64,000 nt of DNA, from positions 30,001 through 94,000 of the forward strand of contig CM018913.1 in NCBI GenBank assembly GCA_009663005.1. The letters are read 5' to 3'. The notes beneath the pieces are model-generated. The model searched no databases. It saw only the letters and a program-made list of their open reading frames with translations, and was not told the DNA's origin. The position numbers were made by a program, and so were the translations under genes. The stretch comes from Actinidia chinensis (lineage: Eukaryota > Streptophyta > Magnoliopsida > Ericales > Actinidiaceae). Of this stretch, positions 3,512 through 60,431 are shown piece by piece; position 1 is the stretch's first letter; each line of letters starts with the position of its first letter.

Positions 3512-4659
3512 TAAAGACCCAATGTGATTTGCAAGTATTAATGCTTTCCTCTGATTGTCTGGACGAGTAGTTAGCTTTTTCTGTACCCCATCACGAGTCT
3601 TAATCTAGTCAAGGCTGTGTTTGAATTAGGAGTTATGGAAGCAAAAATAATAACAAACAAAAAAGGTATGGAAGCCATAAGATAATATAGGAGAAAAATT
3701 AGGCATGGAAGCGATAAAGATAATGAATGAATAATTATTTTTTCGATTACATGTAGATTTTTTGGCATAGGAAAATAATAAGTAAAAAAAAAAGACACAT
3801 TTGTAATTGGACATTAAATAGTACAACTAAAATAGATTGAGAATTATTTCTTACAGATGGTTATGGACCTGGTGGGGGGCCGCACACTTGCATTGCGTTC
3901 ATCTTTTTGGTTAGATGGATTAAACACTACTCAACTCAAGAACACAATGACCACGAGTCTTTGACAAAGTGAAGGTGTGTACTGCAAGTCACATGAAATC
4001 ATACTCAAAATAATAACAATTAATTGTTGGGATAGGTTTCACCAGAAATGGACATAATAGAACAGCAACGGTTGAAGTAACATTAAAATTATGCGTCTGT
4101 ACTTAAATGAGACAACGTGAATTTGATACGTCATTGGTGTTGTAAATTTGTAATTAGCGTACAATTGGGTGATAATTTAAGGATGAACACATGAGTTTAA
4201 TTCTAAAGAGGTGTATGTAGCATAAAAATTAATATTAATTTTAATTTTAAAATGACGAAAATCTATTTTAATTGAAAATTTAAGTAGGTAATACTATTAT
4301 ACAAACAGTCTTAAAGATATAAAGAAGTTTACATACCCACATATCTATCCGTTTCGCTTTATCGACTACGAGTATTGTGTCGAAGGTTTTTGGAACGTAG
4401 AGTAGTGTTCAATACTACAATCAATCGACCTTTTCTCTCTTTATCTGTACAAAATCTGTTTAATTGAAAATGGCCAGAAATTTGAGGAAAGCCCATCAGG
4501 CAGCAAACTCTTCTCTGCAATTAACCAAGCCCTTCACATAACCTTGGATTCTGATCCTCGGTATATACATACATTTTGTTCAATTACCCTTTTACGACTA
4601 CTTTTTCTCTTTAATTCAATTCTGTATATATATGGTTGGGTTTTGCATGTATATATATG

Positions 4660-5525
4660 TGTTTATTTTAGCTATCTAATGTATAATTTGCTCTTGGCTT
4701 AGATAGATTGTAGATTTTAGTTGGGATTATTGCTCTTAAACTGGTTAGCTGACTTTTTATGACGTGTTTTGATCTGATTTCAAGAATTATTTAGGAGGAA
4801 AGAAGAATGAATTGATATCATATATGTGATCCATTGGTGCCAAATTAATTTATTTTTGTATTGGTGAAGAAGGTCCCCGTTTTTCATTTGACTCAGTTTC
4901 CTATGTTTTTGATATGCCTACAATCAGTATCCCCTCCATTACCCTATAATCTGTACAGATACGTGTGTATTCATTTCTACTATGTACTCTGTAATTTCGC
5001 TTGGCTTCAACAATTTCGGGACTTGATTATAACAGATTATACTTGGGATTGTTGTTCTTTAAGGCTTCGTTTGATATAAGATTTTGAGAGTGGGATTGGA
5101 CTATTAGTCTGTTGTGGGGCTCACTTTAATCATGTTTTAGTACAAAAGTTAAACTCGGGACTAATAGTCCATTGGGGCTGTTAATCCCAAAAATGGAGAT
5201 TAGGAATCCCATGGGTGGTTGGTATTACTAATCCAATCTCATGGGACTATTAATCTAAGGAAATTGGGATTGGATTGCTAATCCCATTAAATTAGAATAT
5301 GTTATCAAACATGGCATAAATGTCTAGCTGACTTCTTATGACACAGTTAGATCTGTTTCCAATAATTATTTAAGGGAAAAAGACGAGTGAATTGATATTA
5401 TCTGTGAATCATTGGTCCAAGTTAACTTATGTTTCTCTTGGTGAAGGTCACTGCTTTTCGTTTGGACCAATTGCTTATTTTTTAATTTCTAGTTTATGAA
5501 TTTGAGGTGCCTATAATCAGTAAAA
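4660..5525 (+). repeat. Old tandem duplication inside intron 1 of the E1-beta relic
   Basis: The stretch 4660-4930 is repeated in diverged form at about 4980-5525. Shared landmarks in the same order are CTTGGCTT, TTGGGATT, TAGCTGACTT, AATTATTTA, GAATTGATAT and ATAATCAGTA-like. The second copy is longer only because a 254-bp MITE sits in it. Confidence 0.65.
5063..5316. mobile_element. Tourist/PIF-Harbinger-like MITE, 254 bp
   Basis: Ends GGCTTCGTTTGATA and the reverse complement TGCCATGTTTGATA form an imperfect 14-bp terminal inverted repeat. It is flanked by TAA at 5060-5062 and 5317-5319. The undisturbed first copy of the surrounding duplication lacks it, which acts as an empty site. The interior is rich in short palindromes around TAATCCCA. 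Confidence 0.7.
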
Positions 5526-6410
5526 GATTCTTAAAAGACCCCCTTTAGCTTGGCACAGTTGATTGGTTCTCAACTCTCATAGCTGCAGTGCCTTCTCCAC
5601 TGCAAAGGGATTTACATATAGGAAATGATTAGGAACTGACTTAAAACATACAATGCATTATGCATAACCAATTAGCTCTACCGTGCAATACTTGTGAAAA
5701 GTTGTGTACTTTTCTCTACATTCATTTTATGAAAGGAGAATGACTATGAAGCACAAATACTTCATTTTAGCTGTTGTAGCAGTGTATGGCATGTGTCGGA
5801 CGTGCCGGAATGCATGTCAGACACGCCTCGTGGTGAATCTTTATTAACCTGTACTGGGCATGACATACGTATCTCAGGACGCTTAGGACAATACTTGTTG
5901 TATATTGCATGTTCATACTTCAGAGTTGAGTTCTAAAATCAAACTACATTAGTTTGGTGATGAGGTCAGTGAGTTTGTTAGTTGCTTTTCTTTTCTTTTT
6001 TTGTATTACCATGTTTTTAGTTCTCTAGCTTAAGGTGTGTTGAATGCATGTCCCCTTAAAAAATTGAAACTTCTAAAAGGGACTGAGATTGTGAGAGGGA
6101 GGGAGTATATACTTTCTGCCTTATCCCTGCCATGTCTGTATCCTTTTTTTTATATTTAAATTGCGTGTCCTGATGTCGGTGCTTACATCATGCCTGTACT
6201 TGGTAGTTGTTATCCGTTGTCCTGTAGATCTGTTTCATTGAACCTTTGGGACTGCCTTGCTGACTTATCCCCTCTTTTTTTTGAACTTCTGCATCTTCCC
6301 TCAACCCTGACTCATCAGTGCACATTCAATTATGATTAGCTACTTGTTTTCTTACCGATGTTTGAACAGCTTTACAATTATAACTACCATGCATTAGTTC
6401 TTCTACGTGC

Positions 6411-6498
6411 ATGTGAACCATGATGCCTGTATTATTTATAGTCATGTGACATGCATGCGAACCATGATGCCTGTATTATTTATAGTCATGTGACATGC
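6411..6498 (+). repeat. 44-bp tandem duplication
   Basis: Two adjacent copies (6411-6454 and 6455-6498) differ only at the fourth base (ATGTGAACC versus ATGCGAACC). It lies in the same intron as the larger duplication and is much younger. Confidence 0.92.
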
Positions 6499-9400
6499 AT
6501 CTATCTTCTTTTCTTTGTGTTCAATCTGCTTGCTTGCCACCTCTGTGACATTGTTTTATATATCGCATTAGGGTTATACCTGCATCAATGAATCAAGTAT
6601 GCTTGTCTAAACATCATTATGTCGATGGGGGTTGGGTGATGGGTGGAAGTGGAGATTGGTTATGATAGTTTTACATGGCAAAGATATGCAAAGCCATTTG
6701 GCTCAACTTTTAATCCCAATTTTTGGCTGCTTTTATGAAAAGAAGATTGCTATTCGCAACGGCCTGTTCAGCTTTTGTTAAATATTCTTTTTTGTGCCAC
6801 AAAGCTGAAAATGAAAATTCTGAATGAAGCCCAATAATGCCCAAACCAATTAAGCAACAACCAATTAAAAAAACAATGCCATAGACAATTCAACATTAAT
6901 AAACTAAGCAGGTTTTTACATAGTTTGCTAGATGCCTGAAAAATCAGCCAAACCGTCTGTTTTTTAATACTGAACCCAACAATGCAGGGGGCTTATTTGT
7001 ACCATGCGAACCCATACATTGTCAGCTGTACAGAAACTTACCTTTTCAATAATCTGTTCTTCATAGTGCCTAGGTATTTGGAGAAGATGTGGGCTTTGGG
7101 GTATTTAGATAAACAACAGGTAGCTGAATCGATTGGTAACAGAGAGTTTTCAATACCCCTCTTTGTGGAATAGGTATAATCTTTATCTTAGATTGCTGGG
7201 CCTTTATAATTTTCTGATGCATTTTCAAGTACTTCTAAATTTAGGAAGGTTAAGTAAGAATTTCTAGTTTGGAAGCTGATTCACTTTAACATCAAACTCA
7301 AAGATGGAGTGTTATAAGAATCTCACTGTGTATTCAATACTTTTACTATATTGATCTTGTTCTCCATTTCTTTTTATCAATGTTCTGATTTTTCTTTTTC
7401 TCTTGAAACTATTTTTTTTTATTTTTTATGAATGTTACCATACACAGGGCATCGTAGGATTTGGGATCGGTCTGGCTGTGATGGTAAGCTCAAAACTTTA
7501 GTAGATTATCGTATAGGATTTTATGTCAAAACCCTCCATTGAGTCTGCTTATTGCCTTCCTCGTCTTAATATTTTCGCATGATAGCTGCAACTTGTGTCA
7601 ATTCACATGGTAGGCAAATCGAGCTACAGCAGAAATTCAATTTGCAGATTATATCTATCCGGCATTTGATCAGGCATGCATCATCCCTGGTGGCAAGTTG
7701 TAGTGCATCCTCACTATTGAAATTTGGCTAACTGAATTTCTACTTCATAGATTGTCAATGAAGCAGCTAAATTCAGATATCAGAGTGGCAATCAATTTAA
7801 TTGCGGAGGTAATTTTACATGAAATTATTAGTATCAATTTAAATTGTTCGTGTTTCCATTGCGTCCGGAGGATTCTTTGTGATTTACCAGGTTTGACAAT
7901 AAGAGCACCTTATGAAGCTGTGGGTCATGGAGAGCATTATCACTCACAATCCCCTGAAGCTTTTTTCTGCCATGTTCCTAGAATCAAGTTATATAATGTG
8001 CTGTTGTATGCTCCTTCCTTTCATCCCTCTCTCAAGGAGCAATGCCCCCACAGCATCATCTAGATCGTGCAGGATTTGGGTGACTTCCATTGAGAAAAAA
8101 GGATGCTTGACATCACCTTGATTATTTTAAGAACTGTAGGTAGACATCCATTTCTCTCAAGAATGAGTAAAAATATAATGCATTACATTTGAAGAAAGAG
8201 GCATGGTAAGAGTAGTCGTAACTCGTAAGGACATGCAATGCTAATTTCTGAATGATGAAAATTCAAACTTTTGTTTTATTCATTCCTAGAAAGAACTACA
8301 GGCATTTACTATTATGTAGATCAAAGAACTAATTTCCTTCAACTAGGACACATATCTGGTAAAGTACGAAAGTGCTGACATGTTAGATTATGAGCATTTG
8401 ATATTTTTTTTCAAGGACATTACTTTCAATAACAGAATTTGGACTAATGCACATTGGAATTGGGGGAGTTCCATCAGTTTTAACCAGATTCATAGGGTTA
8501 TGCCATATGACACACTAACATGGCTTTTAGGGCTTACTTGGAGGACCTTTAAGGCTTACTTGGAGGAACTTTTATGTTTTCTCAATTTTCCAAAGTTGAT
8601 TAAGAAAGCTGTTCCTGCATTTTGTACAAGTAGAAATATAGACACTGTCCAATTTCTTCAAGAGTAGTTTGTTTGTAGGTTGTAATTCCTCGAAGCCCCA
8701 TGCAAACGAAAGGGTTGTTATTGTCATCCATACGCAACCTGAACCCTGTTGTATTCCTTGAATCAAAGGTATTGCATTATTCTCCATTGATTTATCTCGA
8801 GTCATTGGATCCAAAACCTTGTCAAATGTTTTTTTGAAACATTGTTAATAATCTAAATATCTTGGATTTTCAGTGGCTTTACCGTTTGGTCATCGAAGAG
8901 GTGCCCGAGCATTATTATATGTTGCCTCTATCAGAGGCAGAGGTACGTTAATTTTAGTTCTATAATTGATGGAGTACACTAAATCTGAAGAAATTGCGTG
9001 CATCAAATTCTGGTGATTCGAGAAGGTAGTGAGTCTAGTGACATAACACTAGTTTGGTTGGGGTGCTCAGCTAGCTATCATGAAAGAGGCCCGTGTTGAG
9101 GCTGATAAGGTAAATGATGCACAATATGTTTCTAATTAACTTCCAAAGTGTTATTTGCATCAAAGGATCACAAATATGCCAGCAGGTGGTGTTAACTTTG
9201 TTTCATTCTGAACTATTTGTTTCTCTTTTTTATGCAACAACTGTGCGCTTGTGCGTTTGATGTGAGTGACGCAAATAGTTATTCGCCATGTGAGAGTTTG
9301 CAGGAAAGAATTTCTTGTGAGCTGATTGATCGAAGAACTCTAATACCTTGGGACAAGGAAACAGTGGAGGCCTCTGTTAGCAAGCCTGGAAGGCTTCTTG

Positions 9401-10434
9401 TAAGTATTAAATGTTAAAACCATTGTATAATAAACTTTCTGAAAGTGGTAGTTGCAACTCTTGGTAATCTGCCTGATTTCTTATTTGTCGATTAGTCATG
9501 AAGCTCCAGTAACTGGTGGATTTGGTGCTGAAATTTCTGCTCCCATTGTCGAACGTTGCTTCTTGAGGGTAATCTTGCAACATTCCAATCCCTTATTTCG
9601 ACTCAGTGTTATTGGTTGATTGCTAGCTTTTCAGTAAAAATGCCAAGGTTGAATGTCTTCATTATTACGCTTGAGAAGCTACCACTACTGATGGTCAAAG
9701 TATTTTGCATATGAAGCATTAGATGTGCTCTTACTTCTTGACAGATATGTGTCCGGTTCGGTCCGTCCACTCGTTCAAATGGGCCGGAAGAAAAATAAGA
9801 AACTGAATGGAAAGAAGAAGAATGATACCACTAATATGCATGCTTAAATCAAACTGAATAAAATAGTACTGTAGTATATAATGCATCTTAAATAAAAAGG
9901 AGAAATAAGTTCAATTAGCTAGAAAATCTGTCATAGTAATTTGTTTACTGCATTAAGACGCACATAGGAGGACACCTCTGTTGCAGTAGGAACGTGCTGC
10001 ATGTCTCTAAGTCGTACATATATGCATATAGGGATTTTGTCTACCTATTTACTGGTTTGCCATATTTTTCTGGTCATAGTTCTTCTAAGAGTTGCACTCA
10101 AGTGAGAGATTTTCTATATGATTGTGTGTCCATTAAAATATCATGTGCCCGTTAAAATATGACCCGACCATATATTGGATTGGTCTTAGTGGGCTGATTT
10201 TTAGTCGCTTTTCCAGTCTTCAAGAATTTAATTGGGATAGGCTTTTGAGAAACTCCTTTTCCACTTGTTTTTGATTCTACATGCCCACCAAGAACAAGGT
10301 TAAATCTGTTACCAAACATTTTGTACTGGTCTGTGTTGAAAAGATATTAATGCTATTGCCACTTACAATGGCTGCTGCTGCTCTACTTTTGAATGCAGAT
10401 ATTAGATGCAATCAATTCAACAGTGAATTACTAG

Positions 10435-11214
10435 TGCATAAGCAACTCTGGTGCGGATAAGCTCATTAGAGAGAGGTCACTATGTCATCAGCATCATAGA
10501 AATTCATAAAGTGGAACAAAACAGAAAGAGAAAAGTCGGGGATGAACACTTCCCTGGCTGTGTTTCTCTTCAACCTGTTCCACATTGAATATAGATACTG
10601 TAATAAGATCATGTTTCTTACCATTCTTTTGAAATGTTGATGGTCTAATGCAGCATACTGTTGTCATAAAATACTTTCCGAGTATATGACGTGAAAAATG
10701 CAATTGATCGTGGCATGTTAAATATTGTCACCAGGCGGATCATATTTGTTTTTCAGTTCTTGGAAGAGGTCCTAATGCAATGATTATGATGATGATGATA
10801 AATTTGGCGTGTACAATTTTCTGTTATCTTACAATTAGAATTGTCTTCTTAGTTGGGAAATTGCAGAAAGAGACTTTTTACACTATCAATGTCCAGCACC
10901 CACCTCTCTCTCTCTCTCTCTCTCTCAATCTCTCTCCCTCTCTCTGCTGCCCATTGTAAGTTTTAATCTTACGAGGAATTTGCCAAATATAATTTTGAAG
11001 TCCAAATACATAAAAGAATACCATGAACCTTCTCATTTTATATTTGCATGTCCAACCAAGAAAACTCGTACCCATACAAAATGCACGAAGAGAAGTTAAA
11101 ATCAAACACTCTAGTGTAGTGCAAGTGCAAGTTCTTACTAGCCTGAAGACATTGAAAATGCTATAGAATGAATTGATGCTACTACATGTGATACAAAACA
11201 AAACAAAACTCGTG
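10435..11214. other. Intergenic DNA with a CT-rich microsatellite
   Basis: This separates the E1-beta relic and the convergent TBP gene. It contains an imperfect (CT)n run at 10903-10945. I see no other gene. Confidence 0.6.
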
Positions 11215-11236
11215 GTCCTGATTTCAATCAAGTAAA

Positions 11237-11242
11237 TTTATT
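11237..11242 (-). terminator. TBP: Poly(A) signal AATAAA of the TBP gene
   Basis: AATAAA on the minus strand, about 175 bases beyond the last exon's first base. It is the nearest canonical signal downstream of the TBP stop, so mRNA ends are expected near 11215. Confidence 0.5.
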
Positions 11243-11414
11243 TAACACCACCGCACCACACCACCACCCCCAAAAAAATTAAGCCATTTTTTCCTCGCAT
11301 CTATTTACAGTAAAACCAGTTTCAGCAGTCATGATATCCAATAGCAGATTTCCTTGCTCTTCATTTTCTTAACACTACTTGCAGATATTGGTCAGTTGCT
11401 CATCCCCAAAACAA

Positions 11415-14400
11415 TCTGCAACAAAATGGACAAATTAGATTAGTCAACCTTTCAGCAATGAAAACTGGAGTACATTGCAAGTAGTGTAATCAATCATCTG
11501 TCTTTAATGGATTAGTGGAGACATAGGGCACCAAATATCAGGTCTCTGAATCCACTGCTCCATATGCAACAAACCACAAAGCTGAAGATGTAATCAAGTC
11601 AAATATTTCATGGATACAAAATTAAGATTAAACAGCACGCATTTCAACTCAGGTTCCAAGTATTCCTTGCAGGTTTCCAGCAATTAAAAAAGAAAAAGAA
11701 AATAAAGAATAGAAAAGAAAATAAAGCAATGGGTCTTGAACATTGTTTGCCGTTATACTATAATGCTAAAAGACTACTTTCCCACCAACTTACACAAGTC
11801 ATCTTTTGGAATCTTCTGTAGTAATGTTTGCTAAATCAAGGAACTAGGTGGACGGACTAATAAAAAAAAATTGATAAGTAGAACAGAGTACATGAAGTGC
11901 TAGGTAAGCGAGGCAAGTAAAAGTTAGCGCCCCTAATCAAAAGATTCAAGCTATGATCAATGCTGGAACATAAATAAATGCAATTAGGTGTCATACCATT
12001 GCTGAACTTTCCTGAACTCGGTAAGAACTGGGTATATATTCTCAAAGGCAGAATAAGTCTCATCTCTCACCTGAAGAATTTGAAGAAACACAACAGTGCA
12101 GATTACAGACAGCCAGAATACCTTATAAAACCTGAAAAACTACATGAAAAAGTCAATGAGGCAACTTCCAGATCTTATTCATCACCTTCGCGCCTGTAAG
12201 AACAATTTTCCCAGAAACAAATATAAGCAGCACAATTTTTGGTTGTTTCATCCGGTAGATCAATCCAGGGAACAGTTCTGGTTCATACTGTATCACAAGC
12301 CTGATCTATCATTAGTATTATGAATGAAGAGATTGATGCATTTGCCTTAATTTAAAAAAGCTTCTAAACATGACATGACCAGTAACACTGTCAGCAACTT
12401 TGGCAGTCAGTTGAGGAAGTACATAAGATAGTAAGATACATTGAACAACGCCCAAAAAAGTTACAACAATAATCTACTTTGACCTTCTTCTGGATTATTA
12501 ACTAACATTCTAGACCAATTATAAACCAAGGATTGCAGAACACAACCTTAACTGCAAAACTTTATCCTGTCACCGTTGATGCAATGCAAAACCTTCTAGG
12601 ATTTCCAGTTACAGCCATGACTTTTATATGAAGACCAAAAAATATACATATCGAAACTCGCTATCACTTACACTTGAAAAAGCACCATGGGAGTATGCAA
12701 GGCCTTCAAGTCTAATTGGAAATTTAACGTCACATGAGCCAACTATGTTCTGAATCTTGAAATCCTGTGCGGAAAAAAAGAATGAGTATGACAACTATCT
12801 AATCTAAGAAAGTGACAACCATAGGGTGACTGATATGTGTGTTGTATCAGTATGTGCACACTTTTAGGAGTACATACCTTGAATTTAGCCGGAAAACCGA
12901 GCTTTTGTATGATTCGAGCATACTGGCAAAAAGCAAACATAACACATGGGAACATATTTTTAAAAAATAAAAATAAAACATCAATACCACACACCTAGAA
13001 TCGATTCAAATACCAGGTTACACTTATCACAATAAAGATGACACAGAAAGTTCATCATGACATTCCTTCTACAGTAAAAAGTTGAAAACTTCAATGCTTA
13101 TTGATAAAAATATCATTCCTTCTACCTTGCGTGCTGCCAATTTTGACTGTTGTTCACTCTTTGCCCCAGTACAAACCTGAAGCCACATGAGAAGTACTTA
13201 AGCAATAGAAAGGATAGCCAACCAATAACTTTTAATCCATATAGTGACATTCAAATTGCATTAACATATTATGAGAGGCATTAGATGTCAACATAATATT
13301 TTTCCATTGACCATTAGCACTTGATGTCGACATCATATTTTAGCAATATGGAACTCTCAAAAATAAAGAGAGCCTGTGAATCTTGAACAGACATGAGAAA
13401 GCTTTTCATGCGATCAAGTCATGCAATCCTGTTCCAAGAACCAAAAATGTAAATTGTGCTAATTACAAGTATTACCTGTAACTCCATAAGCTTAAACTAT
13501 AAAGAAGATGGTAGTTGATGTTAGTGTTTATTGCTCCTATGTATGGCTCCTCCACAAGTCACAAGCAACTCTGTACGTAAATGCATTAACATACCTCGGA
13601 AGCTTGGGGAATAGCAACAAAAAACAAAAGTCTCAGCAACCTATTCCTCTAAGGACTGCTAAAGGTAGATCATATGAAATGAAGGTTTTTCCATGAAACG
13701 GGTTGGGTTCAACTAGGGATATAGGATATGATGTTTCTTTCCAAATGCATAATTATGCAAGTTACTGGTTCATCCTGTAGTTTTTTTCACAATACCCACT
13801 TCTTACATTATGGTTACCAGCAAGCATTAGGACCAATGAAAAAGAGTCATCCTTTGTTGAGTCGGGATATGACACAATGATGTGAGGATAATATTTCGAA
13901 AACAGGCTTACACTATATGGCACATGAGGAATGCAAGTATAAATCTACAAGCATCTACGATGTTCCATGGGCTACGCAAATCTGCAATTCAGCTATCATA
14001 GGCTAACTTAATATCAGTTTTGGGACAAGACAAATGCATTAAAATTTTGGGTGCTGAAGTTCTTTGTAAATTGAGCTCAAGCTATATATTACTTGACCTC
14101 AAGAGAGTATAGCAAGAAGACAGTATATTCTATGAAATACTGATTATGCAATGCATTTTCCTTTCCAACAGAAAAGACTAGCATATATCTCCATTCTTTT
14201 AAAATCGTGCAAAAATTACATTACAAAAGAATGGCAAGTAACACCCCAAAAACTACATAAGTAAATAGATGTCCTATAAGATTTTTAATTAATGATGCTT
14301 ATTTTAGTTAAGAAAGCCTCAAATCAAATGCAACGAGTATCAGGTTAGCTTGGCTTTTAAAGTTGACACGACCATCAAGTAGTACAAGAGTCTCAACCTC

Positions 14401-17400
14401 CGGTTATCCTAGCATATAGGCCTTAAAAATTTAATCAGTTCATCTCTACCTGCAACTATCAAGCAAGTAACAAAACCTCTCTAGAAGTGACGTGAAGACG
14501 TGCCAGCTCACTGTACACCAGAAAACCCCTAAAGAAATCATAGTCAACCTTTAAATCTAGGCAGAGGATGTGATATGGGCAAAATGTTGTAGTAAGAAAT
14601 AAAAAGCTTCATATTGAAACCTAATTTGTATGCCTGGAGTAAGGAGGAGACATTTTTGGATACAAGAAACAACAATTGTTTACGAAATTTTATGGGCAGC
14701 AAATAGTGTGGAATTTGATAATTTTCCATAAAGAACATAAGGCATGACATGGAGACACTCACCATCTTTCCAGAAGCAAATATTAATGCCGTAGTTTTTG
14801 GTTCTCTTATCCTCATAATTACAGCAGCAAAACGCTGCAAAAGGAGCAAAAGTAAAGAAGATTCAAATAAAGATTGATAAAGAAATCAGAAAATACTAAC
14901 TTTGAAAAATAAATTTTAATAAACTTCTTAAATCTTTAGTTCTCAAAGTGCAAGACGGGATTCCAGATTTAAATTTTCAAAGGCTAAGCAGAAAATCTCA
15001 GTCAAACATACTCCATACCTTGGGATTGTATTCTGCATTTCGAGCTTGAAGTGCAATGGCCTTAAGATCCAACTTGCAGTCTAAGTTTACTGTTGACACT
15101 ATGTTCCTAGTCGTACAGACAATTTGTTGTTAAGAATCATAATCAGTTGTTAACTGGAGAAAGAACGTCTTGCTACAAATTTGAATATTTTAAGCATGTT
15201 GTCCAGAAAATAATTGGGGATGGGATAGATACCCAAACAATCCTCTATATGACTACATCAATAAGAACAAATTAGTAGTGCCACTGGTTTTCCATTTCCC
15301 AAGCATATTTTGGCATGTTTTATGGTGGTAGTAATCCCCTAGATGGAAATTTATACATGTATCAGGTGCGTGCAGTTAGTGCAATGATCAAACTATAAAA
15401 GCAAATAAACAGACCAAGCAGCACCATCATTGCAATAGCACACGCAAGTGGAGAAATTTAGTTGGAACCTCTTTTACATGATATGCATATAAGAAGAGGA
15501 TGTCCCCAACCCCAATTATCAAATGCATAAAAACCCCAAATCATCTAAATCATACAAAGACGGGAATAACTTAACTTCAAAATACCCAGCATCTAGTTGA
15601 CTTTCTTTTCTAATGAAACTAAGTAGTTGACGTCGCCAACCAGCTCTCTGTGCTTGATAAATGCTTCTTTAGTGCCTACAAACATCTAAGTCCAAATTAT
15701 AGAAGGTAAACGCTCGACCCAAGTACAAAGTGATCAATATGAGTCAGTAATTTTTAATAGGTGAATTGTAGGTATTAGCTTGGGGACTGGGGATACCACG
15801 TTGCTCTACAATCACAACCACGGCCCCTCATGATTGAGCATAAGCTGGACAAGTCCAAGAGGATAACTTGGAAAGCCATCACCTTGTCTCCGCCGCGAGA
15901 TCTAAGAGCCTGTGGACTGGAGGTAAAGATGGGAGTCTGCCAAGTAATGCACCACGGTCTGGTACGAAGCGGAAGTGTGCACTACTTTGGCCTGTCTATT
16001 AGAAGAGAGAGGTCTGCATTTCTTTATTATAATGGTTCAAGTGGTCCTGTCACGTGGACTATAACAGAAACCAGGAGAGCACGTCCCTTGATTTCCGGTG
16101 AGGTCATAAGGACCTCACATGGGTCGATTAAGACCACTCACATGAGCTACTAAAAGTCATGTGAGCGGAAGCCTATAGATAGGGGGACTGCTTTGTTGAA
16201 ATCGACAAGCTTTAAACACTGTTCATTTGCTTCTCCACTAAAGAAGAAGTCCTGGATTATGCCTCTCTCTGGTAGACTATTGCTTTCTCTTTCCCTCTGA
16301 GTTATATCTCTTTAGATCCCTTACAGAGAACTACTGCTTTCATACATCCCACTACTTCTCATTTCATACATTCCATATCGAGATCTGTCTCTTAGATCTC
16401 ACACATGAACATAAATGTATAAGAAGGATGCCGAAGGGGCATTGCCCAAGTACATAAAAAGGGAAAAAATGGATGAATATACAAAAAAGACATAGTTATA
16501 AGCCCTCCCCAAAGTGTAACTCCCTCATGAAGTTCACTAACAAAAAGGAGGAGAGACAAAAGCCTCCTTAATCCAAAAATAAAAAGAACTAAATAAAGCC
16601 AATTTAAGTCTACGAGTAGTCATCTGCACGTCTTCAAAAGTCTGCATATTTATTTCTCTCCATAAACACGACATTAAGCATAAAGGAGCAATTCTCCAGC
16701 CTCCACACCTTTTTGACCCTCTTATCCCGACGCTAAACATGCCAACAATCGAGAAGATGAATAGCCGAAGCCGGTGTAATCCAACTCACTCCAAAATCAA
16801 AAAACAATAGCCCTAGAAGGGAAAAAAATGCTCATCCTTGTCCAATTATGTTATATGGGCTCTTTTCTAAACACCAGTACTCGTGTAGGACATTTGGGTA
16901 GATTACGGGATATGGTAAAAATCATCCACCCAACAATCACGTTTAGTATTTTGAGTGTACCATATAGCGATGCATAAGCACCCATTTAATCCAAGAAACA
17001 TTCTATTGCTCCTTATAAACATCATTTTCCCCCGAAAACAAAATAGGTATATTAAAACGGATATTTTTGTAGTGTCCATGCTCTTTAGGCATAAGAATTG
17101 GATGAATCCGACGCTTAGAAACATACACTTATATGGGTATTTTTCATTTGCATTGCTTCTAAAGTTATTTTTCATGTGAACCCAATTTCTTGGAATTTCA
17201 AATTTTTTTACCAAAATTAGTGATTGTGAAACAGATGAGTTGACGCTCTTGTTGGTCATTCTTGATGATTTTTCCTTGAGACCTAATGTTAGTAATACAT
17301 GGACATTGGTCAATTCAATCTTCGTAGATTTTCTCATGGAAGTGTTTCTTGGAAAAAATAATTGATACTCACATGTTTACCTTTTCTCCATTGTAAAAGA

Positions 17401-47596: not shown

Positions 47597-47599
<3 letters not shown>

Positions 47600-47629
<30 letters not shown>
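47600..47629. repeat. (GA)n microsatellite
   Basis: About 15 uninterrupted GA units. Confidence 0.95.
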
Positions 47630-47630
<1 letters not shown>

Positions 47631-47889
47631 CCCGATTGAGTTCATAGTGAAGATTTGTTTGCAAAAGAAACTGTTTATATTTAACTATAAACAAAAGTTA
47701 GAACTTCCAATTCTATTGAAGCCTCAAGTACCATGGACCCAATGGAGTTAATAAAAAAACATAAAGGAATTCGCTGAAAGAGTGAATTCAATAGTTGGCT
47801 ATTTACAGCGTTTGGATGGGGAAATTGGTTTTCTTTGTAAATTGGTTTTTGAAAATAAAATTTCAATATCTAGAATATATGGAATTTAA

Positions 47890-48197
47890 TGCTCCATTTG
47901 GATTGATGTGGATTTCAATTCAAGGGATCTAGTAATTAATATCAACAAAATGCAAGAGATTTAGCCATGGGTGGTTTGTTAAACTAGTGGAAGGTGGATT
48001 AGAGGTCGATAAGTATTTCCTATATAATTAGGATAGAATTTCAAATCACACTATTAAATAATCATTTCAAATCCATCATGAAATGAACTCCAAAACTCAA
48101 TGTCTAATCCATATGTAAACTAACATATCTACCTTTAAGCTATTCTCAATGAATATTAATGCCAAATTCTGAAATCCACATATATTCAAATGGAGCC
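47890..48197. mobile_element. Tourist-like MITE, 308 bp
   Basis: TIR TGCTCCATTTGGAT / GGCTCCATTTGAAT, flanked by TAA at 47887-47889 and 48198-48200. Inner inverted motif TGTGGATTTCA. Confidence 0.7.
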
Positions 48198-48594
48198 TAA
48201 AATGTGAATTCATGTGTGGAATTTGCAAGTAAAATTGACCTATCTCGATTCAGTGTCTTAACATTAATCTCCCTAATGAAGTCATACAATTATAACCTTT
48301 TTACAATTTCCTAAAGTCCAAACCAAGCCCCCATTTGTTCTCTGTATAATCACTTACGTTGGACTACATTCAGGCAAATCAAAAGCTACAATCAAACCCA
48401 TTTGAAACCCTTTTACCAGATTTTTCAATTCTATGCTTACCAAACTTTGAAAAAACTAATTAAGAGGGACAACATAAACTTCATAGGAATTGGTATAAAA
48501 TATTGAGTTCTTTATGAGATATTGAGTTCAAAACTTGAATTGAAAACTTCAACAAAGTGATGCTTAAAAAAACATGAGCGAGAGCGGGATTTCG

Positions 48595-48741
48595 CTACCT
48601 TGGAAAGCAGATTTTTTGAGTAAAGAGAAAAGCGAAGGTGCCTGATCTGGATTCGCGAAGGGGTATTTGTGGGGTATCTGATAAGGAAGCTAGTTTCGCG
48701 TTGCAATAACTCAGAGGCCTCGTGGAAAGTGATCATTTCTG
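48595..48741 (-). other. Unrecognised candidate first exon
   Basis: Minus-strand ATG followed by 48 open codons (MITFHEASELLQRE...) to a good donor AAG/GTAGCG at 48595. It is Arg/Ser-rich and could be a plastid or mitochondrial leader. I cannot name it. Confidence 0.25.
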
Positions 48742-48754
48742 CAAAATAACCCAA

Positions 48755-51447
48755 CCAGAAAGCAGAAGAGGACTGATTCTATGTGGGATTTTTATTTTTT
48801 ATTTTTGGAACATTTCCACTTTGCCCCCTTATGTATATATCATATGGGATGCATCCCTCGTGTTATTTATTCCTATATAATATGTTATAGTTGTGAATCG
48901 AAATGCACATCAAATTCTGTTATACTAATAGGAAAGTGCGACTCCTTGCATAGTGTTTGTAGAAAGTGAACTATTTTCTTAAGATAAAATACTTTAAATT
49001 TTCAAACTTTTTAAAATGCCATTGTTTTATTTTTTATATTTTCTCCTTTTAGTCCCTCCAATCACCACAAACCTCCTCTCTCTCTCTGCCCCAATATCTT
49101 CAAATAATTATATATACAACGCGTACTATCCTCTCTCTCATGACAATAAAACAAAAAGATTAGGGTAATCGAGGTAAATTTATAATACATTGGACAATAG
49201 TTGGTCCAAAATCATAGAATGTTATGTGGTGTGATTGAATATGATCAAACTACAAGGAAGGAAAAATGAAATTTACCTTTATTTTTGGCAAAAACGGACT
49301 TTCATAGCGAAAGCGAAATAATAAAATAGAAAAAAATTTGAGGAAGGCATATTTTGGGTAAATTATAATGACCTCTCTAAGTTGAAGAATTATATTTAGA
49401 CTCCCTTTTTTGGAATAATTACACCAGCATCCCTTAAGGTTTATATCTATATAATTCTAACTCCAAAAACGGTTGGTGAAACAGAGTTGACTGGAAGTAA
49501 ACATGATGATTTCATTAACTGTGTACTTAATGCCTATTCACTACTGGTTAATTTAACTATGCGAAGAGAAGTGGTTTACATTCTTAGTAAAAATGTGGGA
49601 AAAACAAAATGTCCTTAAATATCCTGTTGCTGCAACTTTATCTCTAATTTTAATGCCACCCTGTTTTCCGTGTTGCTCCCCATTCAACTCACTTTTCGTG
49701 GCTATCCATAAATGCCATAACTGCATCCACCCTCACCATCCGATCAATCCCAACTCAGATCATCCCACCCCGTACCACCCCAAGTTGCTCTCCTCCTCTA
49801 ATCCCCCATTACATAGCACTCATAAAACTGAATTGTCTATTCTCCTTTTCTATGCCCTACTCTGATTTTCTAACGCAACATCTCAACCACATTTGAATTC
49901 CAATCGCGATTTGCCTTGTTTTAATTGAAATTAAAAATAACCCTAGTATTTGATTGCACAATTAAACAACATATATACGATGAATCTAATAATTTTATCA
50001 TAATAGAAACACAATAAATAATCGATATAAGATATTTAGAAAAAAACAAAGTAGAAAAAAAAATTACGAATCAAGGAAAAATACACTATCAAAGTAGTCG
50101 TATATAAGAGCTCCTCACATCCTATTGTGAATGTACACACGGGGTGTCTAACTATTGTTTTTGAATTTTGTGAACCATCTTTCGTGCTACTCTTCTCGCT
50201 CCTTCACCTCTTCACCTAATTCGAGTACACCGAGCATTTAACCCGTACCTTCAAATACTTTCAAATGATTTTTTATTTAATGATTGATTACTTTATAATC
50301 TTAGAGCTCGTAAATACCCCGATCATAAATTATGTAATAGACTCCTTTAGTACAAAAAATTGAACTTATAATCCTTCAAAACGCTGTATTAAATTAAAAC
50401 ATAATTTTTCTTTTTAATAACAAATACTTAAAACGTGTAAACTCGACTTTCATGGCTGCTAGTTTCGATTAAGGGGAAGGCGACAAATTTCAATCACTAG
50501 CTCCCTGCTTTGTCTCAAAATTATACTTTTAATCCTTATAGTTTTACTATTTTCATTAACTTTTAATTATGAAAACTTAATTCCAAAGTTGCTTTAAAAT
50601 AATCATTTATGCCGAATTCACAAACTATCACTCAAAAACACTCTGAGTGCCAATTCACAGGACATAAATTAAAATAAATATAAAATTAAAATATTTGCCT
50701 TACACATTGATAAACCACACGAGAAATTATAGTCTCAGAAGAAATGTTTTGAAGCAATTGTGACAGTGGGGACTCGGGCACTCACTAGGTTACCCCCCAC
50801 ACCCAAATATTGATGTGTTTTGCACGCCATAGACCAGTGACAACGACTCTGTCACTTTTACCCACAAGTGATATTGGGATTCGTTGATCAAATTTATCTA
50901 ATTCGAGTGTATAGTTTTGATGTTTAAAGTTTATGTATGGAGATCGAGTCACTAATTTGGGAGCCTTTTGAAGATTTTGTAAGGACTACTTTTTTAATTA
51001 CTGGATCTACAACCTCAATATTCAATGTGTACCTTAAATAGTGTTTTCCGAATGGGCTCGAGCCGCCGTGGTATTATTACGGACTCGCCTACGTGACGCG
51101 CCCACATTCACTCATTTGAGTGATGGGACAATTTTTTTACTTTTTTTTAGTGGAGTCCCTCTCTAATAGTAAATTTAGAGCTTCATATAAATGATCGTAA
51201 AATACCACGGGTTCAAGCCCACCACTCGTACCTCAATCATTGATAGTTCAATGGTAAAGTGACCACCTGTAAAGAAAACTGACGGGGTAAAGAGAAATTT
51301 TTGACATTTTTCCGAAAGCTCCTCGCCGTCCCAATCCAACTTCGCTCTTCCAAAATTCACAGGCATACAAATCCTCGGCGTGAAAGCTCTTTCTCCCTCT
51401 CTAAAAAACACAACTCTCTCTCTCCGCATACTCTCTCTCTAGTGTGG
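48755..51447. other. AT-rich intergenic DNA and eIF2B-relic upstream region
   Basis: I see no gene. CT-rich leader-like sequence at 51400-51440 precedes the eIF2B-gamma relic. Confidence 0.5.
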
Positions 51448-52232
51448 ACGGGATTTTCAGGTGGTAGTATTGGCAGGCGGCACTTCGAGGAACTGCATCC
51501 CTCTCGTTTCAAAAGGGTTTCGTCTTCTTCATGCTTTTTTTTTTCTTCTGTATTTTTGGCATATTGTTTTTTTGTTTCCAGTTTTTCGTTATACATGGAA
51601 AAAAATAATCTCAGGAGGTTCCGAATGCGCTATTGCCCGTGGCGAACCGCCCCGTTCTGTCCTATGTTCTGGAGTTTTGGAGCAAAGCAATCTCAAGCAT
51701 CTCATTGTTGTAAGTCTCTCTCTCTCTTTATATATATGCACGTTATGCCGTAACTCCTCATTGAATTTAAGAAAAAAAATATGAGCTAAATCTTGAATGA
51801 ATTTATCAAGCTGCAAATGAAATTTGTCTTTTCGTGCGCCTTTTTTTGGTTAAGTTCTGTCCAAGGCCATCCCCAATCCTTACTTATACTTTTAACTAAA
51901 TTGAGTTGAAAGTTGAGCAAAAGGCTTCATTTGATATGTAGCACTCCAATGAACAATGTCAAGTATGAGGAGAAATCTGGGAGTAAAGAAGAGGGAAGTG
52001 GAAAGTTTGTGCAAAAGTTGCATGTGTTAAGTTTGTGTTGGATTTATATTTGAGTAAGGAAAATTGGGCCTTCTTTGATTTGAGTAAAATTGAATTTGAT
52101 ATAAGTTCCAGGTAAAGTATCTGGTGAGGGTTTTGATGGTTTTTCCTCAAATTTAAGTTTGAATCAAGATTTGAGTGATGGAATGGATGTCCTAAGCAAA
52201 CATTAGCTTTTGGGTAGAACTTCTAGTTTGTA

Positions 52233-52251
52233 CACCCACCCACCCACCCAC
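52233..52251. repeat. (CCCA)n microsatellite
   Basis: Four to five CCCA units just before the third eIF2B-relic exon. Confidence 0.85.
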
Positions 52252-52710
52252 AAAAAAAAAAACTTTTTATAATTGTTTGTGAAAAAATAATTTCTATGCA
52301 AACTAGGGTTTTTAATTTCTTTGTGTATGGAGGATAGGTCGTTGAAGGTTGGAAGGTGTGAAGATGCAGCACTTCGAGTTGGTGGTTGGATATCTAGTGC
52401 TTATGTGGATCGTCTTCATGTTGAGGTAATTATTATATGACTGCCTGATTTGTTTGTTTAAGTGATTGAAGGCATAAGCTTTGAACTGTTTTTGACTTAA
52501 TTCCGTTATAAAACACAATATTGTAGATACTAGAGGGTTAAGTTAGTGAATTATATTAACTTGTTATTGACTATTATGTTGTAAATTCTCAATGGTTAAC
52601 TATACGAGCAATTTTTTTTTTCATTGGAACAAAATGAAAGACCCTTAGGAAATAATGAATAGTGATTTTGAGGCTTGGGAGTGGAATGGCATGATTATTT
52701 ATTATTGATA

Positions 52711-53244
52711 GGTGTGTGAACGGGTCTGGTTAGGCACATTGAGAGAAAAAAGTGCAACCAACCTACCCTTGGTGGGTTAGCATTAGTCCAATCCTCAGTC
52801 GACCCACCAACCTTCAAAATCAATGGGTTGGTTAATTTTTTTGGCAGTTTCAACTCCGTGTGTTTGATGGGTTGGCCGGATAGAAATTTGAGAGAGAAAA
52901 AAATCTCAATTTTAATTCACTCTTATAAAATAAGAGGTTGAAGCACTCTAATAGAAAACTTCACTAGAGAAACAATGAGTACAAAGATGATGAAAAAGGA
53001 TTTTAGCATCATAGTAAATTTGGTGAGAATAAATAGGTGTGAAAAGAGTTATATTTATGACTTATATCTAAATGGGCGGTTTGGGGTCGGCTTAGTAGCA
53101 TATCAACAAAGTTAAACCCCGTAGTTCACTCGCCTCAAAAAAATGCTTATCTCCCACCTAACCCAACCCGCTCACCCTCTCAAACTACAAGTTGCGGAGA
53201 GGGTCAGGTGGATTGGGTTAGGTTGGCGGGTTTTTTGCACACCC
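52711..53244. mobile_element. Foldback element with CGGGTC-type ends
   Basis: Starts GGTGTGTGAACGGGTCTGG and ends GGCGGGTTTTTTGCACACCC, which are inverted. It sits in the 4.9-kb intron of the eIF2B relic and resembles 28193-28535. Confidence 0.5.
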
Positions 53245-55929
53245 TTATTTATTAGCAGTAGCTTTTTTCTGTGTCACAATCCGGTTTTATAAACGAACAA
53301 TATGGTCTACATTGTAAACAACGATTAGTGAAACTTACTGAGTAGAATAACCGGGTATAGCTGTGGATTAATAAATATGGGAACAATGATCAACAATCCA
53401 AGCTCACGTTATGACTGGTCTAATATGGAAGAAGTTTTGTGTTGGTCTTGAGATTTTTTGACATGTTACACTTTATGATTGGACTTTGGAACAAATCAGG
53501 GGAGGAACTAACCATGCCCCCCCACCCCCACCCCCAATTCTGTGCAACCCCTTTAGTATCTGTGTATACTTATATGTCTAGAAAAATTATGCTATTGGTA
53601 CTATTGCATTTGACGAATCACATGCACCAATCATACGTGATGTGCAGGATAATGTGGTTAATTGCACATAAGGTTGATACATGAGATGGTGCCCAAATGC
53701 TTGTGACCCCATAGCATTACTGTGAAAATTATTTATATGCTGCATTTTGTAATGTTTCCATATGCACGTGCAAATCGCAGTTGCACATGATTTGGATAGC
53801 TTGTTATACATTGTTGGACCTATTTCCTAACAACTTAAGCTTTTTTGATCAATTGATGATCTAACAGTTTGCGTGTTTACTTCTGTGAACCAAAACAAGC
53901 TTTAATGTTTAGAACATGAGTTATTGAGGTTAGTAGACCTACTAGCGCTCTGTCCTCATCAGATTATTCTTAACTAATGAGTTTCTTGGTTATTTGATAA
54001 GCCGACGGCTAGTGGAGAGCCCCACTTCAAATAAATTGAAAGATTTACGTGGTGGAGGACTGGAGGCTTATATGTAGATCAAGGATGTTAGCCACTGCAT
54101 CATCACTCAAATTATTATAGACTTTCTAGTTAGCCTTGTTGTATTAGCCCTGGCAAATTTTGATTTGTTTGTTACCTTGGATTAGTAATTTATGTGGTGG
54201 CCTAAAAATCTACCTTAGATCTTTTAAGTACCCCTTACGGTTAGTCTTTACCACTAATGTGCATCTCTTATCTGGCTTTATTAGTTATATAATATAATGA
54301 TGGTAAACCCTAAAAAATATGAACTCTGGAGGAATAATTAATGATCCCTATGATTATTGGGATGCTTGGTTACCTAGTTCTATCAAGGCAAGTTAGCAGG
54401 TTGTGATAAGACTTTGTTAAGAGTACTACTCCTGTTTGAATCATTTTGACCTGACATGGTTATGATATTTTTTTCCTCTGTGGAATTCTTAAAATGGTAT
54501 ACTACTTTCACATATAGTATTTGTGGAAGAAAGTTCATGCTACGGCCTTAACTAGTTTTACAGAACACCTTGATAGGAATGATTAGTTCACTCTTCAGGT
54601 ATTGCTAGATGGTATGCACTCGACTTTTTACTAGTTTTGTCTTGGGTAATGGTGGGTATATTTAGTTGTGGTAGGGTGTTTGATTTGGGGAGATCTCATT
54701 TGTTCTTATATTCCCTCAGTTATATTGGGTTTTTGCTCTTATAATGCCTTGCTTCCACGGCTTGTTCTCATTTTGCCCCCATTTATTGGAATTTCAATTT
54801 CTTTAGAAATCTTAATAATGCCGAAGCTAATGAATTGACTTATTGTGTTATCCATTCTTGAGGGCGTTTTGTTGAGAAGTGATGTCATCGATAAGAGAAA
54901 GTGGTCTATTCATTATTCGGCTCTATTTTCTCGCAAGGTCTTTTTTGAACAGATTATTGATGATCGCAGTGAACCACTTATTGACCTTCATGTGTGCAAC
55001 TTGAAAATAATAATATTTGCTTTATCACTTGCTCATAAGAAGCTTAATACCAATGAATTGAATCAGAAGAGGAGACCTAATTGCCTTCTGTTTCTATAGT
55101 GGTGTGTTTTGTGGAGAGGAAGATAAATTGCACAATCCTAGTACTTTTGAAGGGTCCTCCTTTGTATTATTTTTTCTTCATGACATTAGATGAACATTGC
55201 AATGTATGAAGACCAAGTCCTTAGCTCTGTTGGTTGCCACTTGCCAATTTTGTTTCGATTAATGCTTGACATAGAGAATAATACTCCAATTCCTCCTACA
55301 ACAAGGCGATGTTGTTGGGGAAATCAACTTAATAGCTAGCCCTTGTAACCAATGATTGACCCACCAAGAGTTAGGCTCCTCGTACATTCTTGCTTCAATA
55401 ACATGGGGCTGATTGAAAACCCTGTTTTTCCATAGAAAGCATCATATTCGACAAAACCATTTTGGAGATAACTTTAGTTTTGAAAAAACCATTTGCAGCA
55501 CTTACTTTGGTTCATTCATACACTCCTCGATCAACAAGTGTTGTCAGTCCCCAAACTCCACTACTTCGACCTTGAAGCCAAGACTCGTGATAATCTTTAA
55601 TGACGAAGGTATCTTCCCATGGAATGCCAGATAGCCGGAAAAATTTGGAACACGTCAATTTTAAAGAAAATTATAAAGAAAGAAACCCTAGCAATGATAA
55701 TAATCCCAACTAAATATTAATCTCAATGTCACAAGTGTTTAACAATGATAATAAGCCTAGGATTTATAGGCTAACTAAATGTTCCCAAATTGGAAATAAA
55801 CAAAAAATTCCGTAATTACATATTTGATTCCTATACCAAGCCAAAATTAAATAATGATTTTTTTTTCTTCTGCCCTTGTGTCATGTAGGTGCGATCAATG
55901 GCAGGTCTCTAGTGATCCCCATTACTTGT

Positions 55930-56150
55930 TTCCATTTGGCTTTTAGAATTTGATGAATAGCATCAAAGAAATATGATTGTCCTGTAATGAGATCTTTCCC
56001 TTCATGTTCAAGACAATAACTTTCACATTCTCAATCATCATGTCACACCTATCGTACACAAGATGTAGCACAAAAGAATCAGTGTCTGCTTCCCTTAGCA
56101 TGCCAACAATAGTCACTATAAAACTCAAGAGGTAATCTAGGTCATCCATA
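55930..56150 (-). mobile_element. hAT transposase relic (DUF659-like)
   Basis: Minus-strand peptide LREADTDSFVLHLVYDRCD, then MMIENVK, matches the R-ADTDKP-LHLIY---D-MIEKVK segment of plant hAT-type DUF659 proteins. The open frame ends at 55943 and no other domain is visible, so it is a fragment. Confidence 0.55.
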
Positions 56151-59100
56151 AAGTATTATTTAAAACTTTTGCTTCACCTCACTAGCTTTAGTTCTTATAC
56201 ATGAGCTTAATTAAGTTACCACCTAAAGGATAGTAGCGTGGTCAATGTTACACATCCGTTCCTTGTAGTCATGTAGTTGGACTAAACAGAAGCTAAATTG
56301 GGGAAATTTATGAATATTTTTTCTTCCCTAACCACCAATGTTTCTTCAGCAGTCATATTTTCTGGGTTGAATTCTGCACTGTTGTCGTCTTTTTCTCAAG
56401 ACCAGATAAGCGCGTTATCCTTGAATGTTGGATGGCAAGTCACATCTTAATAATCTGCTGATAAGCTCCCTGAACTGTACTTTGGTTTTTATTTCTTCTC
56501 TTGTTTTCTCTTTCCTTTTTTTTTGGAAGTGGAAAAATGTGCTGTTTGTCTTAGTTCAATACTTGCTAAATTAATAAAAAAAAATGTTCTATTTTCAAAA
56601 CATGTGGTTTTTTTTGTTAGATATTTTGCATGGACTTGGGTGTGGGCATGTGTCTAAGGGTCCGGTTCTTCTAATTTTCATCTCAAGGACATAGAGACAT
56701 GACAATATATTCCTATTCCTAATGTGTCACAGAGCATTTCATGAGTAATATGAGAGTTTTATGCATCGCACTATGATAAACTCGAATTAAAAATATCACT
56801 TGCAGGGTGAATGTCCAACTGAAAATGTAGGGACAATACCATCTCCCTACCGGTGAATGGTGTCCGACCACGGTTGTGCTTTGCCAACATTTAGGATAGT
56901 CCATGTAACCTAATTTGTTAGTGTAGTCTAGGTTAGCAGCTTTGCATTATATCATGATTCATAACTTCCTCTAGCCCAATGTTTGATGCTGCTTTGTTAA
57001 TTTAATAATGGTCCCAAGTTTGTCATACTCGGGAATTGGATTTGTTTTGCTCAATTACATAGAAATTTAGGAATTAAGAATCACTTATGAGAACTCCCAT
57101 TGACCGCTTGTCCAAAATTGTTGTCTTGATGCATATTTTGTCCAAAAATTGTTCATTTGCTCTGAATTAATGTGCCTTTGAAGTATTCTGTGGGAGGCCC
57201 TACGTAGAGCTGGCAAAACTTGATTTATTCTTCTCGTGCTATGTGTTAGTTCTTAAGATCATATCACAGTTATGATACTCACTTAGTTGACAAATGGAGA
57301 TTGATTGAAGTTTCAAATTTCAGGTAGCTGCAGTCCCGAGAATATTGGGACAGCTGGTGCTCTTCGGGCCATTGGTCACTACCTGACTGCACATGATATC
57401 TTGGTTGGAGTTCTTCAACTTTTGGTGGCATTAATGCTTGTAACAATTTACAGCTATTTTATTCTGTATGTTTATGTAGGTTGTGAGTGGTGATCCCTGT
57501 TTTGGGTTCTGTGATGTTCCTCCTGGAGCTTGTGGCGGCAGCTCATAGACGACATGATGCGGTAGTGAACTGCAAATGCTTTGCTCTGGCTCCTGTGATT
57601 GGTCCCATCGGAGTCCAGGTTCCTCCTGGTGGAAATGACAAAACCAAGAAAACAGGACGCTATAAATATTATCGGGCTGACCCCACAAAACAATTTCTGT
57701 TGTTCATAGCAGCTGTTAGATCCTTATATTTATATATCATATCTTATCTAAATGTAACATTTGTTTCATCCATCTTGAGTATTTTTTGGCAGGTGCGGAG
57801 GTTGAGAATAGATAGATTTCAAAGAGCATTCTCCGTGCAGTGGGGCAGTTTTGTCCAAGCTACTGTTAGAAACACGTGGGTGATTCATGTCAATTAATGG
57901 CGATGAGAGTCCGATTTTTTAGTTTTCGTCCCCTTGTTATTAGTGGTGTTGTATTTATTTAGCTTGTTTCCTTGCTAACTATCACATAAGCCATCCTCCT
58001 TTTGTGGTATTGTGAATGAAAATGTTTATTCGGAGATGGTAGCTAGTGATCTGCCTTTGATCTTCTTGATTGTGTCTTTATTCTAAGAAAAAGGAAGAGA
58101 TAGCTTTATTAACTTTTACTGCTGACATCCTTTTCTTTCCTCTAGTTTCTGTGCCTTCTTATTTTCATCTCATTTCGTATGACATTTATTTCTTATCCTT
58201 CTCTAACTTGTGGTGGCTATTAATTTCATTCTCAAGTTTGTAAAAAACACGGAAGAAAAAACTCATTTTCATCAGTTGTATACTAGTTATTAGGAAGCCA
58301 GTAGATCTAAATATGTTATTGTAAATTTGGGAATTGTTTTTTGTCACCTTCCTCTTCTAGTTTTTTCTTGCCATTTCTAAGATTTGTTTATAACCTGTTT
58401 CATGTAAAAAATGATTATGTTTGGAAAAATGACATCTATCTTGACAGTTTCCTTAATGGTTTACAAGCTTCTGATTGGTTCGTAACTCAGGCTCTCTTAT
58501 CCCATCTAGATGGAAATTCGTCTGATCTGAATGGATGCTCATTTATAGCTTTTCAAGAGGTTTGAGGTTGATCTACTTCCAATTGTGTTTTACTTCATTT
58601 TAGAATCTCTGTGCTTATCATATCCTTATTTTCATCACCTTGTTTCTTCTAGGTCTTTTCCTCTTCAGAAATACTTGATCAAAAAGAAGTTTCCAAAGCT
58701 TAAGGCAGATGTGCTGCCTTAATCCTTGTCAGGAGCCAGCTGGTTGGTTGATAAGATGCCTGCATGATTTTTTGCATATTTGTATTATTTTGTTCATTAT
58801 TCTTTCCCCCTACAAAAATTCCGAGGTCTTAAATTAATCATTGGATGTTAGCTCAAGCAGAAGAAAATGGGAAGACAAGTTGTTTCCTCCCTGGATAACA
58901 AATAATGCTGTCTCAACTTGTGGTCAAGACATCTTCCTCAAGTTTCCATGACACTTTGTGCCATGGGTCCCAATGGATGGCTGCCCCCCTTTCCTAGAAA
59001 AAACCATAATGTTGTGTTTATTGCCAGCAAGGAACAAGTATTGTGCACGCTTGAATTCGATTCTCAAGCTTTTAGCGACATTAACCACGAGATGTGAGTT

Positions 59101-60431
59101 TTAAAACATTACGAGATTTTGTGACTTCTCATTATTTTCTTTGTTTATTTTCTTTCCCACTATTCTAGTGTCAGTGGAGTGGCGTCATTTCCAAGTATTT
59201 TCCTCAGGTTCAATAAGGAAGAGGGGGCAGGTCCCTATCAGTATGAGGTGTCCGGTCGTCGTGTGCTCAGTAACTACAAGTCATAATGCCGGAAGTGGGA
59301 TACTACGCTGCAGTAGCTTATAAAGTCTAGACAACTAATACAGGGACTGCTACTACACTCCTTTCATACCAACGGGCCGAATGTAAATATCATAAAGACT
59401 AAGTAATGAATACTGATACTAAAATTTGTATTCTAATAGTGGGTAGCTAGGCAGATGTCTAATGAATCTTTTTGGCAGCAGATATTATTATTTCTTAAAT
59501 TTACTGATTCAATTGTTGTTTCTAACATCCTTGGTAATGTTTAGCAAGTTTACAGATCCCTCTAGATTCGGCATAGTAGTATCATATTTCCGTAGCGGAT
59601 ATCATATTACAATACTTCTACTACATTCAAAAAAATACAATGGTTCTCACCATTCTTAGCTTGTCTGTAATAATACTGAAAATATATATGTTAATTGAGT
59701 TTGTTAATAGTTTATTTATTTATCTTTTTGCAAGCATGTTCTAGCAGTACCCATTTATTTTTTTCCCGTTTCTCCGTACTGTATACTAATAATTCATATC
59801 AGTATGGTGTAGCCACGCTTCATCGGTTTGATTGTTGTAGGTGGACCACAATGCATCCTGGGAGAAGGTTCACACATGGGTGACAAATGTAATTGTAAAA
59901 ACGATCCTGTTCTTGGCCGTCATTGCCGGATAGGTTCCAACGTAAAGGGTGATGATACATTTGTGCCTCAACAACGACGGGAATTAATTCCAACTATGAG
60001 AACGAGTCCCATATACTTGTTAATCTATTTTTGTTCACAAAATACATTTTCATGTATGCTACTTTTCAACGTTCCTTTAAACTGGGGAATTGGCAACACT
60101 TTTATCAATTGTACTGCAGGTGTCAATTCAGTTATTATACCATGTGACTAATTGGAGATGGTTTGTTCCATTCAAGGCTCTGTTTAATTTGCAGCCAACG
60201 TGCAACTCCAAGACCGTTTTGTCGCTGAGAGATTCCAGTTCTCTCTCTGCTCTCTCTCCTCTCTCTCCCTCTCCCTGGGGTCAAACAGGGTCTGCTGTAT
60301 GGTGTATTTGCATTGACTGCCCTATGTTTCTTAATAGTTGGGCTTTGGTGTTTCTTCTCAAGGTAGGAGCATGTTTTTGTGGTCAGTTGCTGGCCAGCGA
60401 ATATAAGGGGGAATCCTTGGCAAGGAAATAG

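Follow-up and report, generated by a model that had tools for sequence, protein, structure and literature searches.

The window analysed here is a stretch of 64,000 nucleotides at the start of an Actinidia chinensis chromosome, C26 (CM018913.1), positions 30,001 to 94,000, in an assembly of 638,422,350 bases in 1499 contigs. A gap of 100 Ns at window positions 23,835-23,934 joins two contig ends and separates the YTH, E1-beta and TBP genes on the left from the DEAD-box gene, PP2A-C, the PSY exon and eIF2B-gamma on the right, and TBP and the DEAD-box gene are connected solely across this scaffold gap. In window coordinates, the features are as follows.

1..23834, no strand: left contig end, a second copy of C26:347817-371721 in unchanged orientation
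40..2605, plus strand: YTH-domain gene, 3' part, open to its stop (YTH, PF04146, 1.4e-15 for 985-1635)
4470..10431, plus strand: probable E1-beta pseudogene of the branched-chain keto acid dehydrogenase type, from its homeolog and shared indels
11999..18372, minus strand: TBP gene, eight open coding exons, 200 codons; open on C28 too
19601..23834, no strand: low-accuracy stretch adjoining the gap, with the fault in either copy or in both, from comparison with the other copy
23835..23934, no strand: 100-N gap, from the sequence
23935..64000, no strand: right contig, within a noisy copy, inverted, of C26:~538-602k that probably reaches ~607k, from BLAST matches
23935..24528, minus strand: presumed DEAD-box helicase, 5' part, frameshifted, from its translation
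28890..40550, plus strand: presumed PP2A-C catalytic subunit, broken in the window; other copy at C26:~590.7-602.1k
42067..42207, minus strand: phytoene-synthase-like (PSY) exon fragment, from a sequence match
44435..46323, minus strand: DUF7755 gene with a CGL160-like end, broken in the window; two long exons open at C26:584858-586867, plus strand
51443..60431, plus strand: eIF2B-gamma pieces in shifting frames, from a match to solved eIF2B-gamma

The initial annotation had described this stretch as a cluster of four or five dead genes that keep their introns, interleaved with flawless YTH and TBP genes. All the genes named there can be located in the sequence together with their lesions, which exceed chance expectation; for PP2A-C and the DUF7755 gene, the lesions carry the signature of noise described below. 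We take the gene at 23935..24528 to be a DEAD-box helicase, although a Pfam search of 24127-24528 gave no hit, and that at 28890..40550 to be the PP2A catalytic subunit, whose C-terminus is found as expected in the other copy. The exon at 42067..42207 is presumably of PSY, from its match to a phytoene synthase query. E1-beta has as its closest solved relative the branched-chain keto acid dehydrogenase E1 beta subunit (chains 2j9f and 1dtw). The DUF7755 gene is a further broken gene, absent from the earlier list; its CGL160-C-like end scores below the Pfam cut-off, and its 229-aa exon found no match in the PDB. A degenerate ACC repeat at 20861-21343 yields long chance open frames, and an element at ~25570-26440 has counterparts on many contigs, for the most part with 66-89% identity. 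No treatment of this locus was found in the titles and abstract openings of the literature searched.

A second copy of the left part of the window lies further along the same chromosome. By BLAST, 1-21,424 recurs at C26:347,817-369,145 in the same orientation with 97.4% identity, and 20,859-23,821 matches the other C26 copy at 82.3%. The repeat extends upstream of the window, with C26:12,183-22,500 being 99.3% identical to C26:330,001-340,339, and ends at the 100-N gap of the window. When the two copies are compared in 1-kb tiles, 16 of 23 are at least 99.4% identical and the remaining seven range from 87.0 to 98.3%. Even the clean part differs in a noise-like manner: over the 15 kb of 4,001-19,000 there are 44 indels and 31 substitutions, 26% of the latter being transitions. 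The stretch adjoining the gap (19,601-23,834), with overlapping BLAST pieces counted, shows 264 indels and 356 substitutions, of which 33% are transitions. At 2,001-3,800, where there are 37 substitutions (27% transitions) and 87 indels, a three-way alignment of the window, the other C26 copy and C28 identifies the copy at C26:350k as the bad one: it carries dense short indels, the last two YTH exons included, and the window agrees with C28. Noisy kilobases thus interrupt otherwise clean sequence, and one copy of a gene may seem dead when the other is flawless. This removes the argument that clean neighbours exclude sequencing error: good and bad kilobases lie intermingled in this assembly, and with the YTH end of the other C26 copy itself broken by noise, an intact neighbour proves nothing.

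The left part also has a homeologous block on chromosome C28. Twelve listed BLAST pieces match window 1-19,293 to C28:201.9-223.1k in reverse orientation; seven are longer than 400 bp, at 84.7-92.2% identity, and five are short (86-311 bp), at 67-79%. C28 was also considered as partner of the whole window and was rejected, as only 1-19,293 matches it. The initial annotation had called for a search for a partner block with intact copies, and for E1-beta this was found, C28 carrying an intact E1-beta together with TBP and YTH. Retention of TBP, also proposed there, is borne out by its presence on both C26 and C28. The Ks values suggested for measurement are 0.095 for the TBP homeologs (Ka 0.013, ratio 0.14, 200 codons, both open) and 0.142 for the YTH homeologs (Ka 0.0355, ratio 0.25, 586 codons), the latter gene being kept on both chromosomes as well. 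Collinearity between C28 and the C26:330-378k copy holds on either side of TBP, and the homeolog of C26:200-203k lies at C28:380-382.5k; together these point to C26:330-378k as the native place, the window copy probably being the redundant one.

We read E1-beta as a genuine unprocessed pseudogene, a neutral-looking relic and a real dead homeolog, in agreement with the initial annotation. Thirteen exons can be placed in order in the window copy, with introns kept and some exons damaged, and the intact syntenic partner at C28:218775-211731 has all 13 exon pieces open. The coding indels comprise deletions of 55, 3, 2, 1, 32 and 4 bases and insertions of 1, 9 and 1; all nine are common to the C26:352-358k copy and absent from C28. 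Splice sites are lost as well: the exon 12 acceptor is deleted, and changes affect the donor after exon 6 and the acceptors of exons 9 and 11. Pairwise Ka is 0.063 and Ks 0.064 (Ka/Ks 0.98) over 315 codons, with only ~13 synonymous changes. Between the two C26 copies, 10 of the 13 exons are identical; exons 3 and 4 are affected by noise in the other C26 copy, and exon 7 has two changes confined to the window, at clean sites where the other C26 copy and C28 agree, so that haplotype differences may contribute to some extent. One E1-beta intron contains a 44-base tandem duplication (97%) at 6408-6500. The loss of E1-beta appears to have followed the duplication behind the C26/C28 homeologs, as an ordinary homeolog loss.

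The right part of the window matches a different region of C26, and in the opposite orientation. Five BLAST pieces place window 28,502-55,853 in reverse order along C26:602,420-574,921, and one piece of 131 bp lies on the other strand; the visible matches are at 28502-31337, 36302-48863 and 53372-55853. The inverted match continues beyond the window, C26:95,935-96,846 pairing with 564,920-564,001 (the stretch 562,859-564,920 also being matched) and C26:120,998-123,000 with 539,919-537,940, and is thus collinear over ~64 kb between the outermost matched pieces. The first 997 bases of the C26:120001-123000 probe found no second place on C26 in the parts searched. An extension of the inverted copy to C26:200k was considered and found no support, the 200001-203000 query matching C28 only, with no second place on C26 in the searched parts, a small part of the expected C26 partner being compared. 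The right part gave no match of at least 150 bp at E 1e-10 to C26:330-420k, to the searched parts of C28:170-250k or to C26:1-22.5k, and two DNA searches for its homeolog elsewhere showed none among the candidates scored, which numbered 39 of 975 in one search and 39 of 343 in the other; apart from the inverted C26 copy, these gave short or repeat-like matches. The right half thus has two features of a false duplication, a collinear second copy in the same assembly and a 100-N gap at one edge.

The differences between these two copies look like sequencing noise rather than mutation. Based on BLAST pieces of at least 500 bp, window 28,501-49,000 differs from its C26 copy by 446 substitutions (112 transitions, 25%) and 536 indels in 14,200 aligned bases, 415 of the 536 indels being of one base, and 53,001-56,000 by 2 substitutions and 20 indels in 2,478 aligned bases. 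In contrast, the homeolog control (window 4,001-19,000 against C28) has 1,084 substitutions (589 transitions, 54%) and 178 indels in 13,761 aligned bases, giving 0.16 indels per substitution compared with 1.20 for the right half. A random substitution process would yield one third transitions. For 36,302-48,863, MAFFT gives 457 substitutions (36% transitions) and 391 indels, and BLAST 353 mismatches and 434 gap openings; the MAFFT picture is milder, but both are far from the homeolog control. A long G homopolymer tract lies at ~29830-30020 and aligns as a 200-base insertion in the window relative to the other copy; this insertion may be an artefact.

The genes of the right half follow the same pattern where they could be compared. 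In the other copy of this stretch (C26:574,921-602,420), all six compared exons of PP2A-C are open, through the C-terminus, and the window differs from this open copy by 24 substitutions and 15 noise-like indels in 608 coding bases. These six come from about eleven exons (a count by eye), about five in C26:594,921-599,920 being left out, and one, at 39,738-39,829, shows no differences between copies. PP2A-C was thus not found to be an unprocessed pseudogene with real lesions, and its listing as a dead gene is not supported. Raw reads had been proposed as the means by which the indels might be removed; for PP2A-C the second assembled copy served as a stand-in, and its compared exons lack the frame breaks. 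The DUF7755 gene differs from its other copy by 53 substitutions and 44 indels over 1,050 bases compared. For the DEAD-box gene and for eIF2B-gamma, small searches for a second copy returned the window itself only, and a stretch between eIF2B-gamma exons is 98.9% identical to the other copy, only part of the partner having been compared. We infer that the lesions of these two genes are artefact noise too; that they are instead real relics on a diverged haplotype, with that part of the right half truly decaying, seems very unlikely. The isolated PSY exon adjoins PP2A-C. Each copy, within the part of the other one compared, contains a single clear match, and the in-frame stop falls at the same alignment position in both. 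The window showed no further clear PSY exon, so that this one is a true relic, a real gene fragment.

Taken together, these results very probably describe a mosaic in which redundant contigs were scaffolded together at the chromosome start, and in which the second contig was poorly corrected and E1-beta is the only real pseudogene. The left contig (to 23,834) would be a second assembled copy of C26:~348-372k, and the right contig (from 23,935), inserted in inverted orientation, would repeat C26:~538-602k or more at low accuracy; the two redundant contigs would have been scaffolded ahead of the native chromosome end. The genes on the right contig would be broken because it lacked a good consensus, leaving raw-read-like indels of 1-2 bases and random substitutions, as comparison shows for PP2A-C and the DUF7755 gene and as is proposed by extension for the DEAD-box gene and eIF2B-gamma. 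E1-beta, in turn, would have lost its function after the duplication that gave the C26 and C28 homeologs, the C28 copy staying intact. The assembly itself shows that the sequence is present in duplicate, with one piece inverted, that the differences are noise-like and that exons are open in the other copy; the right-half copy would have no separate locus in the plant. The single contiguous block of the initial annotation is not supported, the named genes falling in two halves split by a scaffold gap, the right piece inverted relative to its other copy. Thus, the cluster of dead genes in the form proposed is no real feature of the biology, and what remains of it is the E1-beta loss and the PSY fragment.

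The original proposal, in which a single block underwent fractionation following whole-genome duplication, losing four or five genes to decay and retaining TBP and YTH, accommodates E1-beta, since the partner block on C28 is present at Ks 0.095-0.142. It is nonetheless difficult to reconcile with the compared PP2A-C exons and the long DUF7755 exons being open in the other assembled copy, with differences rich in indels and transversions, with the N gap between the halves, and with the failure to see a right-half homeolog on another chromosome among the candidates scored, and we regard it as improbable to a high degree. Alternatively, the plant might really carry a recent segmental duplication, inverted and at least 64 kb long, on which the genes have since died; this would explain why the match is collinear over about that distance between the outermost matched pieces. 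Real decay, however, proceeds mostly by substitution with an excess of transitions, as in the control, whereas the values observed here are 1.2 to 10 indels per substitution and 0-25% transitions. The noise is also patchy by kilobase, with 500-bp tiles ranging from 0 substitutions (from 39,001) to 30 (from 30,001), and such a duplication appears the least probable of the alternatives considered.

If the window and the C26:348k copy shared source reads, E1-beta could be an artefact as well. The noise islands differ between the two C26 copies, yet all nine coding indels are common to both and include events of 55, 32 and 9 bases, and the flanking differences from C28 bear an evolutionary signature; an artefactual E1-beta is consequently even harder to credit than fractionation of the whole block.

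Under the preferred reading of a mosaic of redundant contigs, the inversion of the second contig makes genes that are far apart in the main copy (~240 kb, extrapolated) look like neighbours. The window therefore provides a worked case in which a chromosome-scale plant assembly can fake an unprocessed pseudogene cluster, complete with introns and "pristine" neighbours, and losses could be over-counted when such assemblies are surveyed for pseudogenes or fractionation. Even without reads, noise and real decay can be told apart by comparison with a second copy, through the ratio of indels to substitutions and the fraction of transitions. The one true loss, of E1-beta after the recent duplication, is ordinary.

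Both components of this locus resemble described systems. The available part of PMC6804796 reports, for the recent kiwifruit duplication Ad-alpha, a Ks peak of about 0.12-0.18 and 29 pseudochromosomes; the TBP and YTH Ks values of 0.095 and 0.142, with a collinear C26/C28 block and one E1-beta lost, resemble the loss of an Ad-alpha homeolog. For long-read assemblies, the available part of PMC8081667 describes redundant contigs in the primary assembly and tandem copies with an intervening gap, a consensus quality that differs between the copies of a false duplication, with one haplotype left at lower quality, and short CLR indels that cause frameshifts. The present case shares with these the redundant copies, the gap, the uneven consensus and the frameshifting short indels. 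Unlike the cases in that part of the account, the second contig here is also inverted, and the duplication is known from the assembly sequence alone.
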